From the NCBI GenBank assembly GCA_903907925.1, contig CAIVQB010000059.1:1-40751 (forward strand): a stretch of 40,751 nt of DNA, read 5' to 3'. The position numbers and the translations under genes were made by a program. This DNA is from an uncultured Verrucomicrobiota bacterium (GTDB taxonomy: Bacteria > Verrucomicrobiota > Verrucomicrobiia > Limisphaerales > UBA9464). Shown here one piece after another: positions 8,031-12,201 of this stretch (position 1 is the stretch's first letter; each line of letters starts with the position of its first letter). The notes below the pieces were generated by a model. It ran no database searches. It was given only the letters and a program-made list of their open reading frames with translations, and was not told the DNA's origin.

Positions 8031-8441
8031 CTACGCTCGCTCCGGAGTGATTAGCTTCAGCTTCGGAAAGTAAGTTCGGTAGCGAGCGTCGTCGCGGGTC
8101 ACGAGTGTCACGCCTTCGGATTCCGCGTGGGCTCCGATGTAAAAATCGGGCAGGGGCGACGATTTGGAACCACCGCGTTGACGGTAGGCGAGAAACGCCT
8201 GGCCGGCCCGAAACCCGGCTTCATACGGAAGCGCCAGTCGCCGGAAAAGGGAAGGTCGTAGCCAGCGATCCAACGAGGCCTGGGTTTCGAATCCTGGAGC
8301 CAATTCAGCGTAGATGATGGGATTCAGCAGAATCGGCCCATCTTCGGACGCTTTCCGGAACTGGTCCATTGACCAACGTTGCCAGATCGGATCTGCGGTC
8401 ACGATGTCCAGCAGTACGTTGGTATCGAGCATCCGCGGCAT
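8031..8441 (-). CDS. vapC: VapC-type PIN-domain toxin ribonuclease
   Basis: PIN-domain toxins cleave RNA, often initiator tRNA or rRNA, and are held inactive by their antitoxin. The 136-aa product has the expected acidic residues: LDTNVLLD near the N-terminus, YAEL in the middle, LPDFYIGAHA and TRDDARYRTYFP near the end. The ATG at 8441 shares one base with the TGA of vapB (TGATG), so translation is coupled; a TTG three bases upstream is also possible. The gene ends 15 bp from the convergent kinase gene. Target RNA is not predictable. Confidence 0.9.
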   Translation of the reverse strand: MPRMLDTNVLLDIVTADPIWQRWSMDQFRKASEDGPILLNPIIYAELAPGFETQASLDRWLRPSLFRRLALPYEAGFRAGQAFLAYRQRGGSKSSPLPDFYIGAHAESEGVTLVTRDDARYRTYFPKLKLITPERA

Positions 8442-8671
8442 CAATCCTCCCCGCGGGTCAGTTTCATGACTTTTGCCGTCGTCGTTCTTCCGTAGGCGAT
8501 TCCGGCGGACTCCTGAAGCCAGGCCTCAACTGGATCGATGCCCTTACGTCGCGCCCGCAGAACCACTTTTCCGTGATCCGCAACAAACTCGACGTCGGTA
8601 CCTGGCTTGAAGCCGAATTCCTCGCGAATGGGCATTGGAATGGTCACCTGACCTTTGGTCGTAATTCGCAT
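8441..8671 (-). CDS. vapB: VapB-type AbrB/MazE-fold antitoxin
   Basis: This 76-aa protein has the SpoVT/AbrB DNA-binding fold at its N-terminus (MRITTKGQVTIPMPIREEFG, then GTDVEFVADHGKVVLR), followed by a C-terminal tail (ESAGIAYGRTTTAKVM) that would wrap the toxin. Such antitoxins bind DNA as swapped-hairpin dimers and repress their own operon. A perfect inverted repeat lies immediately upstream, between promoter hexamers. No ribosome binding site is present, and the start codon lies six bases from the -10 element. Confidence 0.9.
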   Translation of the reverse strand: MRITTKGQVTIPMPIREEFGFKPGTDVEFVADHGKVVLRARRKGIDPVEAWLQESAGIAYGRTTTAKVMKLTRGED

Positions 8672-8768: not shown

Positions 8769-10043
8769 TCAGTTGAAGGTGTTCTTCCGGTACGCGCCCA
8801 TGGCCGGGGCGTTCGGGTTTACTTCGGGTCCGAAGTAGCGGAGGCAGACCAGGGGTTCGGTTTCGCTGGTGTTTTCGAAGGTCACGCCGGCCTTGGCGCC
8901 GTCTTCGGTGCAGAAGTATTCGTCTTCGGTCAGTTCGTGGAAGCGGATCAGCTTCGGGCTGACCAGCGGCTGGCCGTTGATCTTGCCGCTGCCCTGGACG
9001 CAGATGAGGCCATAGGCGCCGTTGTCCTTCACCACGGCCTTCGTGCCGGGATCCACGGTCAGTTCCTTGGCGGTGAACAACTGCTCGCCGTCGACCTTGC
9101 CGTAGACGATCCAGCGATCGACGTAGCCTTCGCTGCGGGTGTCGGCCACCGGCACCGGTTCGAGGTAGTGGTTGTCCTTGAAATTCGGATCCACGTTCTT
9201 CTCCCAATCGAGCTGATCGACGATGAAATCCAGGTCCTTGTGCTTGTTCTTGGGCATGTCCTTCACGAGCAGGCTCCAGGGCACTTCGCGACCCTCGACC
9301 AGGTTTTGGTACATGCCGAAGACGTCGCTGCCCCACTGCGGCTCGTAGGTGCAGAGGCTGCCCGGGGCGTGGAGGATGCAGGGATCGATCAGCCAGCCGG
9401 TGCCGACCTTGAGGCGGTAGGCCTTGGACAGGTCGAGAATGCCGTTGTCGCCCTTGTTCCAATTCTCGATGCATTTCCGAACCTGCGCCTTGGTGGTGCC
9501 GGGTTCGAAGCCCATGAAGGTGTAGGGGAAGTTGTTGCCGACATTGTTGTGCTGCGGCGGGAAGTAGTAGCTCTCCGGCTTGCCTTCCTGGCCGACCAGT
9601 TTCGCCTGCTTGGCGCTCTGGTGCATGTGATGGGGAATCGGCCCCATGTTGTCGAAGAACTTGGAGTAGACCGGCCATTTTCCGTACTTCTTCCAGATCG
9701 CCTTGCCGACGAGCGTGGCACCGCAGTCGGCAACCGCCTGATGCAGGGTGAACCGCTCCTTACCCACCACGCAGTAGCTCAGACCTTCATCGGCGGCGCG
9801 GCCTTCGTTGGCAGTGACGGTGGTGGAGGCGAACCAGCGTTCGTCGATGCCGCCGCGGTTCAGGCCGTAGGCGTAGGTGTCGTCCGGATGCAGTTTGATC
9901 CGGAGGCCGGGCTGCAGGAAGGAGCGCGGAACCCAGGCGGGCGCCAGGCGCAGCAGACCGCCCGTGCGGGCCAGCTCGGCTTCCACGAGGCGGGTGACAT
10001 TCTTTTTGACGGTCTTGAGCTGGGTGACGGAGTGGAGACTCAT
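8769..10043 (-). CDS. cupin-fold protein related to class I mannose-6-phosphate isomerase
   Basis: The 424-aa product shows features of the phosphomannose isomerase/cupin superfamily: a metal-binding type cluster PIPHHMHQ, a long helical insert (EPGTTKAQVRKCIENW) like that following the metal site in class I isomerases, then LKVGTGWLIDPCILHAPGS and YEPQWGSDVF, and a C-terminal cupin barrel (VVKDNGAYGLICVQGSG). In such enzymes fructose 6-phosphate and mannose 6-phosphate are interconverted with zinc bound by His and Glu side chains. The exact substrate is not certain. The open frame runs upstream to 10337, but family-like sequence begins near MSLHSVTQLK, so the ATG at 10043 was chosen. It is divergent from a small lipoprotein gene. 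A TATCCT element at 10121-10126, embedded in GCCGCTATCCT, could be part of its promoter. Confidence 0.6.
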   Translation of the reverse strand: MSLHSVTQLKTVKKNVTRLVEAELARTGGLLRLAPAWVPRSFLQPGLRIKLHPDDTYAYGLNRGGIDERWFASTTVTANEGRAADEGLSYCVVGKERFTLHQAVADCGATLVGKAIWKKYGKWPVYSKFFDNMGPIPHHMHQSAKQAKLVGQEGKPESYYFPPQHNNVGNNFPYTFMGFEPGTTKAQVRKCIENWNKGDNGILDLSKAYRLKVGTGWLIDPCILHAPGSLCTYEPQWGSDVFGMYQNLVEGREVPWSLLVKDMPKNKHKDLDFIVDQLDWEKNVDPNFKDNHYLEPVPVADTRSEGYVDRWIVYGKVDGEQLFTAKELTVDPGTKAVVKDNGAYGLICVQGSGKINGQPLVSPKLIRFHELTEDEYFCTEDGAKAGVTFENTSETEPLVCLRYFGPEVNPNAPAMGAYRKNTFN

Positions 10044-10269
10044 GGCGTGCAATGCGTGCGTGAATGATGGACAAAGGCGCCGGTTCCGGACCAGTTCCGA
10101 GAGATCGGCGGCGTGGAGAGAGGATAGCGGCAGCCCCGTAACGCCTGCCAAGCAAAACTCCGGTGGCAAAAGCCTGCAACCTTTCACCCCGCCGCGGGTG
10201 ATGGGAGTGGAAAGCCGCTCCGAGTTTCCGATGAGGAAGACCGGTTGGGCTGCGTCCGAATGCCCCGAT

Positions 10270-10617
10270 ATGAAGACCCGATTGTCCCTGTTGATCGTCA
10301 CCCTGACCGCCATGGCCGCCGCCGGCTGCATCCACACCGAGGAAACCGTCGTCCGCGACGCGCCCCGAGTGCCGGTGGAATTCGAAACCGAAACTGCCGG
10401 CCGGATCTTTTACGAGGCTCTGAGCCGGTCGAACAGCGAATACTCCCACCGCGAAAGCTCCGCCGATGTCGAGGTCCCGTTCGTGTTCGGGCACAAGACC
10501 CGGACCGTCCGCGGACCGAATCTTGCCTTCAACGAGGCCGTCCAGCGTGCCGACACGAATCACGATGGTCGGATTACGGAGACGGAGGCGCGGATTTATG
10601 CGGATCAGGTGAGGTAG
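10270..10617 (+). CDS. small lipoprotein with one EF-hand
   Basis: The 115-aa product begins with a lipoprotein-type signal (LLIVTLTAMAAAGC; predicted lipidated Cys20). Near the C-terminus is a canonical 12-residue EF-hand loop DTNHDGRITETE at 95-106, with Asp, Asn, Asp, Thr and terminal Glu in the calcium-coordinating positions, and a flanking helix NLAFNEAVQRA before it. It is probably exported and anchored to the outer or inner membrane and may bind calcium. Proteins with isolated EF-hands and lipoprotein signals are frequent in the PVC group. No function is assigned. It is followed by an octamer tandem repeat rather than a terminator. Confidence 0.6.
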   Translation: MKTRLSLLIVTLTAMAAAGCIHTEETVVRDAPRVPVEFETETAGRIFYEALSRSNSEYSHRESSADVEVPFVFGHKTRTVRGPNLAFNEAVQRADTNHDGRITETEARIYADQVR

Positions 10618-10703: not shown

Positions 10704-12092
10704 CTACTGGCCTGAGGGTTTGGCGAGGTGTTGGCGTTCCCAGGGTTCGAAATTGCCGTCTTCGGCGCGGTGGATTTCCGAGTGGCCGTCGGCGAAGGCG
10801 TACGCCCGCTCGAATCCCCTGGCCGATCGCACCACATAAGCCTCTTTTTCCCGCGCCAGGATCACCCGCGCCGGGTCTGTAATGGCCGCCAGGGAGCCGC
10901 TGTACATCAATTCGTATTGGCTGGGGTCAAGTTCAGGGGATTCTGCGTCCTTGGGGAATTCGGACGCGGCATCGGCAAAACTCGCGGGGACCTGCCCGTC
11001 GTGTTTCGAAGCGTACAGATGAATGGCGAGGCTCCATCCCTTTGCATAAACCATCTTGGCGATCGCCACCCGCTTGCGTTCCTCAGCATCGGCGTCGTCG
11101 TTTTGTGGGTTCGACGCGACCCGCTTGGCGCGCAGTTGGGTGACTTCCGACTTCAGCCGGGCCAGTTCATTGGATTGCCCCCGCAGCCGCGCCACTTCGC
11201 CGCGCAATCGCAGCAGCTCCGGATCGACGCCGGGGCTCTGGCTGGGAGCGGGAACCGGAATCGCCGCCTTTGCCGCGGCTTCCGCAGCGACGGCCTGCAA
11301 ACGTTCCTGTTCGGCTTGAAGGCTGCGCACCTGCTGATGTTGGAGGACGAGTCCGGTGACGAGGGCGAGGCCGACGGCACCGGTGATCAAAGTTTTGGCG
11401 GTGGTCATGGTGAAAAGGGTGAAGGAGCTGGTGGTGAGACTGACAGAACCGACGGTTGCGGCGGCGAGCGCAGCGGTGGCAATGGTCGCGGCATGAGCGG
11501 TCGATGGGGCGGATTCAATGGCCCCGGCAGTGATTGCGGCCGCCAATGCGCCGGGAGTGATCCAAGGTTGCCGCGGGTGGATGAACTTCCGGAGGCGGTC
11601 GATGGAACGGCTCAGACGCTTTTGGGCGGCATCCTCGGAGATGCCGAGAGTCCGGCCCACTTCGCCGAGGCTGCGGTTCTCAAAAAAACGCAGCACCACG
11701 GCATCCCGGTCGCGCTCCGGCAAACGGGCCATGGCGTCGTCCAGCAACGGTTCGATTGCTTTCCAGGTGGCGTCGGGATGGGGATCGTTCATGGCCGTCA
11801 CGGCTTCCTGTTCCCGGCGCTGACGCCGGCCTTCGCTCCGATTGTGTTCGCCGGCCAGGTGCACTGCGGTTCGATACAACCAGCCCGAAAGAATGACATC
11901 ACGCCCGAGTCCGGCGGCCTTCCGGGCGAGCACGGTGAACACCTGTTGGGCCACGTCCTCGGCGTGGTCGGGAATCGACAGCCGGCGCCGCGCGGTGGAA
12001 AGGACCAGCGGCAGATGGCGCCGCACCAGCTCGCCGAAGGCTTCGGTGGAAGCCCCGGTCACGTGCGCGGACAGCAACTCGCGGTCGGTCAT
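10704..12092 (-). CDS. ECF sigma factor fused to membrane anchor, coiled coil and extracytoplasmic domain
   Basis: The 462-aa product starts as an ECF sigma-70 factor: region 2 at residues 10-80 (PDHAEDVAQQVFTVLARKA) and region 4 at 115-172 (LPERDRDAVVLRFFENRSLGEVGRTLGIS, read in two parts). It does not stop there, as free ECF factors do (about 190 aa). A hydrophobic stretch at 203-222, a transmembrane helix at 234-251 (ITGAVGLALVTGLVL), a coiled coil at about 255-325 with regular leucines, and a C-terminal domain at 335-455 follow. The last part contains a helix (KMVYAKGWSLAIHLYA) and FADGHSEIH near 433-441, which recalls the C-terminal segment of pseudopilin-like proteins of this phylum. 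A membrane-held sigma factor whose activity responds to an external signal, or that is released by proteolysis, is the likely design. ATG at 12092 follows a GTG; AGGTG nearby is a weak ribosome site. Confidence 0.8.
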   Translation of the reverse strand: MTDRELLSAHVTGASTEAFGELVRRHLPLVLSTARRRLSIPDHAEDVAQQVFTVLARKAAGLGRDVILSGWLYRTAVHLAGEHNRSEGRRQRREQEAVTAMNDPHPDATWKAIEPLLDDAMARLPERDRDAVVLRFFENRSLGEVGRTLGISEDAAQKRLSRSIDRLRKFIHPRQPWITPGALAAAITAGAIESAPSTAHAATIATAALAAATVGSVSLTTSSFTLFTMTTAKTLITGAVGLALVTGLVLQHQQVRSLQAEQERLQAVAAEAAAKAAIPVPAPSQSPGVDPELLRLRGEVARLRGQSNELARLKSEVTQLRAKRVASNPQNDDADAEERKRVAIAKMVYAKGWSLAIHLYASKHDGQVPASFADAASEFPKDAESPELDPSQYELMYSGSLAAITDPARVILAREKEAYVVRSARGFERAYAFADGHSEIHRAEDGNFEPWERQHLAKPSGQ

Positions 12093-12201
12093 CACCTGAG
12101 TAATGGCCGCCGCCCGGAAAAATCCGACAGGGAATTTTGGGGATCCGTTGTTGCGAACCGGACGGGTCGCAGGTGCAATTTCACCCAGTACATTTCACTG
12201 C

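Follow-up and report, generated by a model that had tools for sequence, protein, structure and literature searches.

How might an ECF sigma factor be controlled when no anti-sigma gene lies beside it and its own chain runs on, past the sigma domains, into the membrane and beyond? Most of what is understood about ECF sigma factors involves an anti-sigma factor that is a separate protein, and the question is raised by a minus-strand gene in the window (by which we mean the whole stretch of DNA analysed, 40,751 nucleotides from an uncultured Verrucomicrobiota bacterium). We think it rather likely that this gene encodes a membrane-tethered ECF sigma factor, with a cytoplasmic sigma part, a transmembrane helix, a coiled coil and an outer pilin-like head, which would serve as a one-chain envelope sensor that activates its own gene. 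Its features are collected in Table 1.

Table 1. Features of the sigma-fusion gene, in window coordinates
Feature	Position	Strand	Remarks
CDS, sigma-TM-coiled coil-pilin-like head protein	10704..12092	-	462 aa; ATG at 12092, stop 10704-10706
Promoter-like element TGTCGGATTT-N11-GGCCATTA	12101..12129	-	Ends 8 nt before the ATG
Sigma-70 region 2 (residues 22-89)	11826..12029	-	Pfam PF04542 (Sigma70_r2), E 2.5e-9
Sigma-70 region 4 (residues 120-169)	11586..11735	-	Pfam PF04545 (Sigma70_r4), E 4.5e-12
Juxtamembrane stretch (residues 176-230)	11403..11567	-	A-A-P-x-x-L here in many relatives
Transmembrane (TM) helix (residues 232-250)	11343..11399	-	Best hydrophobic window, scale value 1.08
Coiled-coil motif ELLRLRGEVARLR (residues 292-304)	11181..11219	-	E292, L296 and E299 invariant in 24 rows
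Pilin-like head (residues 326-462)	10707..11117	-	Predicted fold; model pLDDT 92.4
FADGHSEIH motif (residues 433-441)	10770..10796	-	Resembles the ends of several own-genome prepilins

The open reading frame could begin either at a GTG (as ORF 10704..12095) or at the ATG at 12092. Because the distance from the first base of the conserved upstream motif to the ATG is 37 nt both here and in three orthologues, the start is fixed at 12092, and the gene end given in the first-pass annotation was correct on this ground. Within the N-terminal part, the Sigma70_r2 and Sigma70_r4 matches both exceed the curated Pfam cut-offs, and TIGR02937 matches with an E value of 5e-21 (75 bits versus a cut-off of 42.9). 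In VIA alignments, the model of region 2 superposes on region 2 of Escherichia coli sigmaE (4lup_A; Z 14.5, 91 residues aligned, 1.4 Å) and that of region 4 on sigmaE region 4 bound to −35 DNA (2h27_D; Z 9.5, 69 residues aligned, 2.5 Å). Both regions looked for in an ECF sigma factor are present, each with a sigmaE-like fold, and the intact regions 2 and 4 read from the letters at first pass are borne out by the Pfam cut-offs and by these folds. A phage origin was considered and rejected: PHROG 1740 covers residues 13-282, yet none of the 36 viral-contig stretches was confirmed by tblastn, and the two phage records that resemble the protein do so over the sigma part only, at about 30%.

The same architecture recurs well beyond this gene. 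Its own genome holds 20 matches; 11 of them, at E 2.1e-34 or better, are clear members, and in these the similarity extends past the sigma part. At E 0.001 or better, each of the 50 genomes searched has some match, a portion of these being plain sigma factors, and the C-terminal half is matched in 25 of the 50. Full-length matches were found in genomes G009 (56%), G010 (51%), G001 (48%) and G040 (46%); on the tree of sigma parts, the copies in G009, G010 and G001 form one clade with the sigma-fusion gene, and the copy in G040 falls outside it. For comparison across the family, 95 of 121 sigma ORFs were kept (those of at least 240 aa, after removal of redundancy). By the names given by submitters, the family belongs mainly to Verrucomicrobiota, for example Limisphaerales and Pedosphaera (80 of 84 confirmed stretches kept). 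For four family copies (L203, L205, L247 and L251) the record title is Akkermansia muciniphila or Proteobacteria, and these bins may be mislabelled. Since the fusion is conserved in orthologues and paralogues, the reading of it as a frameshift artefact fails. The idea that sensor and sigma factor might be a single chain stands as far as the chain itself is concerned: the ORF is intact, orthologues and the 11 own-genome members share its architecture, and the polypeptide that carries the sigma factor also carries a probable outer domain.

Whether the head lies on the far side of the membrane depends on how many times the chain crosses it. In the AlphaFold model of the whole chain (pTM 0.37), long helices at residues 230-276 and 291-326 lead to a helix/strand head at residues 332-453, and model confidence is low around the juxtamembrane stretch (pLDDT 38-60 over residues 191-240). 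One TM helix is clear. A second, Ala/Thr-rich window at residues 201-219 is marginal, at 1.50 versus 1.08 for the TM helix on a hydrophobicity scale whose pass line is 1.5; of the “transmembrane segments” proposed at first pass, one is clear and a second doubtful. Were the two hydrophobic segments to form a hairpin, as the closeness of 1.50 to 1.08 might suggest, the head would return to the cytoplasm and the protein would be an internally regulated, membrane-attached sigma factor. We regard this as improbable, given that in 87 of the 95 family members the TM window scores better than the segment before it, that this preceding segment is under 1.5 in 8 of the 95, and that charged residues occupy the stretch equivalent to residues 201-219 in some relatives. 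The TM window itself passes 1.5 in 65 of the 95. Family means for flanking Lys plus Arg (1.61 before the TM helix, 2.22 after it) do not favour an N-in orientation. Pilin, redoxin and carboxypeptidase-regulatory-like domains, the kinds of head found in the family, are expected outside the membrane, which also counts against a hairpin and favours an outside location here. We infer that the head of the sigma-fusion protein lies outside. A cytoplasmic C-terminal domain, named at first pass as the outcome that would overturn the proposal, is not what the single clear TM helix of most members and the several extracytoplasmic-type heads point to, though this protein does have the marginal second segment.

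A methionine near the start of the TM helix (window 11403-11420) recurs across the family, lying within −10 to +5 of the TM window in 70 of the 95 members versus an expectation of about 0.25 per member. Its position coincides with the apparent starts of some genes that lack the sigma part, and it may mark an internal start or be a relic of fusion. Internal translation from it was tried as an explanation and set aside, because that site shows no enrichment of Shine-Dalgarno-like matches (mean 1.60, compared with 2.37 at methionines within the sigma part and 1.79 at first methionines), a test that is weak because first methionines score equally poorly.

The head was modelled separately, with 24 family sequences. 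Aligned with VIA against 998 chains, the model gave type IV pilins in all of the top seven rows: 6xxd_A (Z 7.2, rmsd 3.7, 103 residues aligned), followed by 4noa (Z 5.3), 1ay2_A (4.3), 4v1j (4.2), 5vxx_A (4.0), 4bhr_B (3.9) and 3sok_B (3.3), with the best non-pilin row at Z 2.9. The leading Z of about 7 (under 8) is modest taken alone. Foldseek on the head alone returned no significant row (best E 0.14, with reverse transcriptases at E 0.14 and above), a PDB sequence search with the head profile gave a best E of 0.038 to proteins other than pilins, and an NCBIfam scan of the 24 head sequences yielded nothing useful. Independent support for a pilin-like head comes from the prepilins that the head profile finds in the organism’s own genome. 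After three sigma fusions (E 8e-38 or better), the profile lists 24 weaker matches up to E 1.8, spanning about positions 10-58 of 145; of these 24, the best 12 (E 1.5e-4 to 0.06) comprise 11 with a canonical prepilin leader and one with a variant leader. Prepilins at several loci of the genome also close on a motif similar to FADGHSEIH, for example FADGHSEVHKW. The sigma-fusion ORF itself contains no prepilin leader motif, and with a pilin-like fold this makes the C-terminal domain a pilin-type head carried on an anchor that lacks a prepilin site, not a pilin. On the strength of the model, the VIA rows and the prepilin-finding profile, we assign to the C-terminal head a predicted fold like that of type IV pilins, in keeping with the coiled coil and folded pseudopilin-like domain with FADGHSEIH that the first-pass annotation described. 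The search that it suggested for genomic copies of this domain yields three sigma fusions with a pilin-like head in this genome.

Other members carry other heads on the same chassis. Those encoded in the genome of the sigma-fusion gene are pilin-like in three cases, carboxypeptidase-regulatory-like in three and HEAT-like in one (a weak match, under the cut-off), the rest being unnamed, and a scan of 94 outer parts across the family gave CarbopepD_reg_2 in 15, AhpC-TSA in 2 and FKBP in 1. In two members (L099 and L137), an AhpC-TSA/redoxin domain lies at the far C-terminus, about 500 residues past the TM helix. The pilin-like label applies to 32 of the 95 rows, an over-representation that stems from the choice of members by similarity to the sigma-fusion protein among the matches listed. 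The coiled-coil motif ELLRLRGEVARLR follows this label, being present in 29 of the 32 pilin-headed members and 14 of the 63 others. On the tree of the 95 sigma parts, the pilin-like label needs 10 changes versus a mean of 27 when labels are shuffled, a count that holds when only well-supported branches are considered; heads have thus been inherited, yet gained or lost several times, with the reservation that some of the 10 changes may reflect truncated, frameshifted or unrecognised heads. Two members, L036 and L115, have almost identical sigma parts and different labels.

Nothing adjacent to the gene or within its chain was recognised as a partner that would hold the sigma part off. No anti-sigma gene appears among the neighbouring ORFs that were read (PolX, a small lipoprotein-like ORF, a Mur-ligase [FolC-like] ORF, thymidylate kinase, a PIN-domain gene, a fatty acid hydroxylase and a 432-aa ORF), as the first reading of the locus had it. 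A genome-wide search with PF13490, the zinc-finger anti-sigma family, gave one match, on contig C92. Within the chain, Pfam places no zinc-finger domain between the sigma part and the TM helix at E up to 1, and no anti-sigma domain was found by the same means.

Conservation around the gene is uneven. PolX, thymidylate kinase and the 432-aa ORF are kept in G009 and G010 at 86-95% identity; the 432-aa ORF (window 8772-10067, minus strand) is 93-94% identical in both and matches no Pfam family at E up to 0.001. The PIN-domain gene (window 8034-8444, minus strand), which lies between thymidylate kinase and the 432-aa ORF, has no match among those listed for the syntenic stretches of G009 and G010. 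The small lipoprotein-like ORF (window 10270-10617, plus strand) converges on the sigma gene, contains a calcium-loop-like stretch, DTNHDGRITETEA, and is about 68% identical in both genomes. In the same comparison, the sigma-fusion protein is 54% identical in G009 and 50% in G010. Divergence this fast (about 54% and 50% versus 86-95% for several neighbours) might suggest a relic, in which an inactive sigma domain persists in a gene kept for its membrane head. However, the sigma part is the best-kept portion of the protein (68, 63 and 60% identity in G009, G010 and G001, versus 39% in each for the head), and the promoter motif described below is retained; we consider a relic very improbable indeed.

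Relatives in which the head and the sigma factor are not joined were also found. Genes for a TM helix, coiled coil and pilin-like head without a sigma part adjoin a fused gene in three cases (L058 6728-7504 in G009, L068 7646-8653 in G005 and L138 4481-5356 in G007), and two more (L062 7812-8597 and L139 5724-6503) lie in stretches in which no fused gene was read. In G039 (L141 1701-3229), a plain ECF gene is followed by a separate gene, whose product is a membrane protein that has a coiled coil and, at E 1.4e-9, a pilin-like head. This second protein is a candidate anti-sigma factor, the pair being a two-gene version of the fused design. The sigma-less and split forms, few cases of each, speak for a regulatory connection of the head with the sigma factor and suggest hetero-oligomers.

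These observations bear on how the sigma part would be activated. With the head outside, the sigma factor could work while still bound to the membrane, switched by a conformational change or by oligomerisation through the coiled coil and without proteolysis, following a ToxR-like logic. The conserved coiled coil, the failure to recognise an anti-sigma domain between sigma part and membrane, and the sigma-less coil-and-head copies beside fused genes in G009, G005 and G007, placed as if they were partners, are all compatible with this. Against it stands the precedent of IutY, which in the available portions of a 2022 review is the sole ECF sigma factor whose activation through proteolysis of its extension has been shown, by Prc and RseP (PMC8999054). 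We take membrane-bound activity to be possible, though unlikely, and return to release from the membrane as the simplest step in the mechanism proposed below.

If the protein is a switch, what it switches may be sought in the DNA before its own gene. Paired conserved elements lie directly 5′ of family members. Upstream regions were obtained for 74 of the 95 members, of which 68 were kept; in 26 of the 68 nonredundant regions, TGTCGGA occurs at −50 to −28 (shuffled mean 0.13, maximum 2 in 500 shuffles), and it occurs in none of the 68 between −140 and −60. For the less strict TGTC[CG]G the count is 37 of the 68 versus 1.95 when shuffled. A second set of 37 regions, kept from 84 ORFs, behaves alike, with TGTCGGA in 11 (shuffled mean 0.04) and TGTC[CG]G in 20 (1.24). 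We considered and rejected the possibility that the motif is a coding signal or part of an N-terminally extended protein. Among 135 upstream regions, 49 lacked the motif expression (some of them belonging to subgroups with other motifs) and 28 were redundant; in the remaining 58, the motif occurs in all three frames relative to the ATG, and an in-frame stop intervenes in 21, so it is not a coding signal. Ending where it does before the ATG, the element would leave the mRNA almost leaderless.

The second half of the element differs among subgroups. The exact pattern of this gene, TGTCGGATT-N-GGCCATWA, has four sites in the 50 genomes (none in the control), which are those of the sigma-fusion gene and its three orthologues. 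A sister motif with GCGGGTGTT has 15 sites, nine of them at family starts (1 in the control, over 50 genomes); the other six lie in ORFs, four in one trypsin-like gene. A third type has three sites, each just before a family match. A promoter model was built from 52 of 54 candidate sites in other genomes (L137 and L204, whose sites seemed out of register, were omitted) and applied to the genome of the sigma-fusion gene. With 150 of 2052 candidates scored, the sigma-fusion gene ranks first (E 0.003) among 14 matches, and the starts of three paralogues come next. The ten lower matches all lie within ORFs of at least 150 aa, which in GC-rich DNA is a poor ground for discounting them as promoters. 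Two of them, L264 and L268, have an ATG 59 nt downstream that opens over 100 codons, compared with 41-47 nt for the four family starts.

Searches for a wider regulon brought no clear further target. Allowing up to three mismatches, the own-type pattern has one extra site in the genome, inside a 378-aa ORF, and no start was found downstream of it. Two looser patterns give seven sites (2 in the backward control) and two sites (none in the control): the first group includes the start of the paralogue on C77 and the second includes the sigma-fusion gene, and the remaining seven sites have no ATG-started 60-aa ORF within the 95 nt read. The recognisable target of the element, as judged from sequence, thus appears to be the sigma-fusion gene itself; paralogues carry a related element, and weaker promoters are possible. 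A conserved promoter-like element before the sigma gene, a feature looked for in an autoregulated ECF sigma factor, is present, and this sigma factor probably reads it.

Another ECF sigma factor of the family might read it instead, the fused genes together forming a single regulon or cascade whose members activate one another. The elements of four members in this genome, the sigma-fusion gene included, are all found by one model (150 of 2052 candidates scored), and much of the family has a similar TGT.CGG half. The second half, however, is specific to subgroups and kept across genomes (GGCCATWA at 4 of 4 sites, GCGGGTGTT at family starts in 9 of 15, the third type in 3 of 3), and we judge cross-activation rather unlikely. 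The subgroup-specific halves fit recognition of each element by its cognate sigma factor; they would also fit a gene and promoter that are simply inherited together.

The architecture and its conservation, the predicted pilin-like fold, the differing heads and the promoter-like element come straight from the computations; the mechanism that we would attach to them, a sensor and transcription factor in a single chain, is the following. The N-terminal sigma domain would reside in the cytoplasm, with the TM helix and coiled coil holding the pilin-like head outside. The head would sense a change in the envelope, conjecturally contact with, or loss of, parts of a pilus or type II secretion system. 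This change would release or rearrange the sigma part, most simply (again by conjecture) through intramembrane proteolysis as in IutY. The sigma part would then start transcription at the conserved promoter 5′ of its own gene, giving positive autoregulation through a nearly leaderless mRNA. In paralogues the chassis would be the same, bearing other heads and served by related or diverged promoters.

A more far-reaching version, which we hold only tentatively and think doubtful, is that each member is a self-contained switch whose private sigma factor targets its own promoter only, so setting the amount of its own outer domain in place of a stress regulon. The lineage would then make new switches by exchanging heads on one chassis, with chassis and promoter diverging together. 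A large family that joins sensor, anchor and sigma factor in one chain, with varied heads and seemingly gene-specific promoters, would amount to a set of one-gene envelope switches that could be tested directly, and sigma regulons of one gene would alter how ECF regulons are expected to look. The membrane-fused ECF idea would also extend past the described groups, and sigma signalling would be tied to pilin-type domains.

Parts of the design have known counterparts. The head shares its fold and a FADGHSEI-type motif with prepilins and pseudopilins that carry a C-terminal DG[HS] motif; unlike prepilins, the protein has no leader, a coiled coil separates its TM helix from the head, and a sigma factor forms its N-terminus. 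Membrane regulators of the ToxR type place the DNA-binding part inside and the sensor outside, and both they and VtrA/VtrC carry a winged-helix activator where this protein has a sigma factor. As described in the available portions of PMC9214523, the VtrA/VtrC co-component regulators likewise combine an inside DNA-binding part with an outside sensor in a fast-evolving cassette.

Among ECF sigma factors, the nearest are ECF48, ECF52 and ECF53, for which the portions of PMC8999054 and PMC5826349 available to us describe a sigma factor, a TM helix and an extracytoplasmic C-terminal part in one chain, with release by proteolysis proposed; positive autoregulation has been suggested for SCO4117 (ECF52, Streptomyces). 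The order of sigma factor and then TM helix in one chain is the same here. Those groups, as far as these portions describe them, are from Actinobacteria and have a zinc finger before the TM helix (and, in ECF52, a carbohydrate-binding domain), whereas the present protein showed no zinc finger and has a pilin-like head, and its verrucomicrobial family varies in its heads. In Pseudomonas putida, IutY (ECF243) also unites a sigma factor and a membrane regulatory part in one chain and, in the same portions of PMC8999054, is activated by Prc and RseP proteolysis; the part joined to its sigma factor is a cell-surface-signalling anti-sigma factor of iron uptake, a domain that Pfam does not find here. 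The WD40 ECFs of Planctomycetes, compared by their description in the available portions of PMC8567305, are a lineage-specific expansion with added C-terminal domains and appear in detergent-soluble fractions; the added domains are WD40 domains, and those portions report no pilin-like head. The available portions of PMC8103513 and PMC8195603 describe no closer relative, and a search of mainly open-access literature by titles and the openings of abstracts found, among the papers listed, neither a fusion of sigma factor and pilin-like domain nor this verrucomicrobial family. One-chain membrane ECF sigma factors are thus known, and what is seemingly new here is a head of pilin type, the lack of a zinc finger, heads that differ from member to member and a promoter that seems to serve its own gene only.
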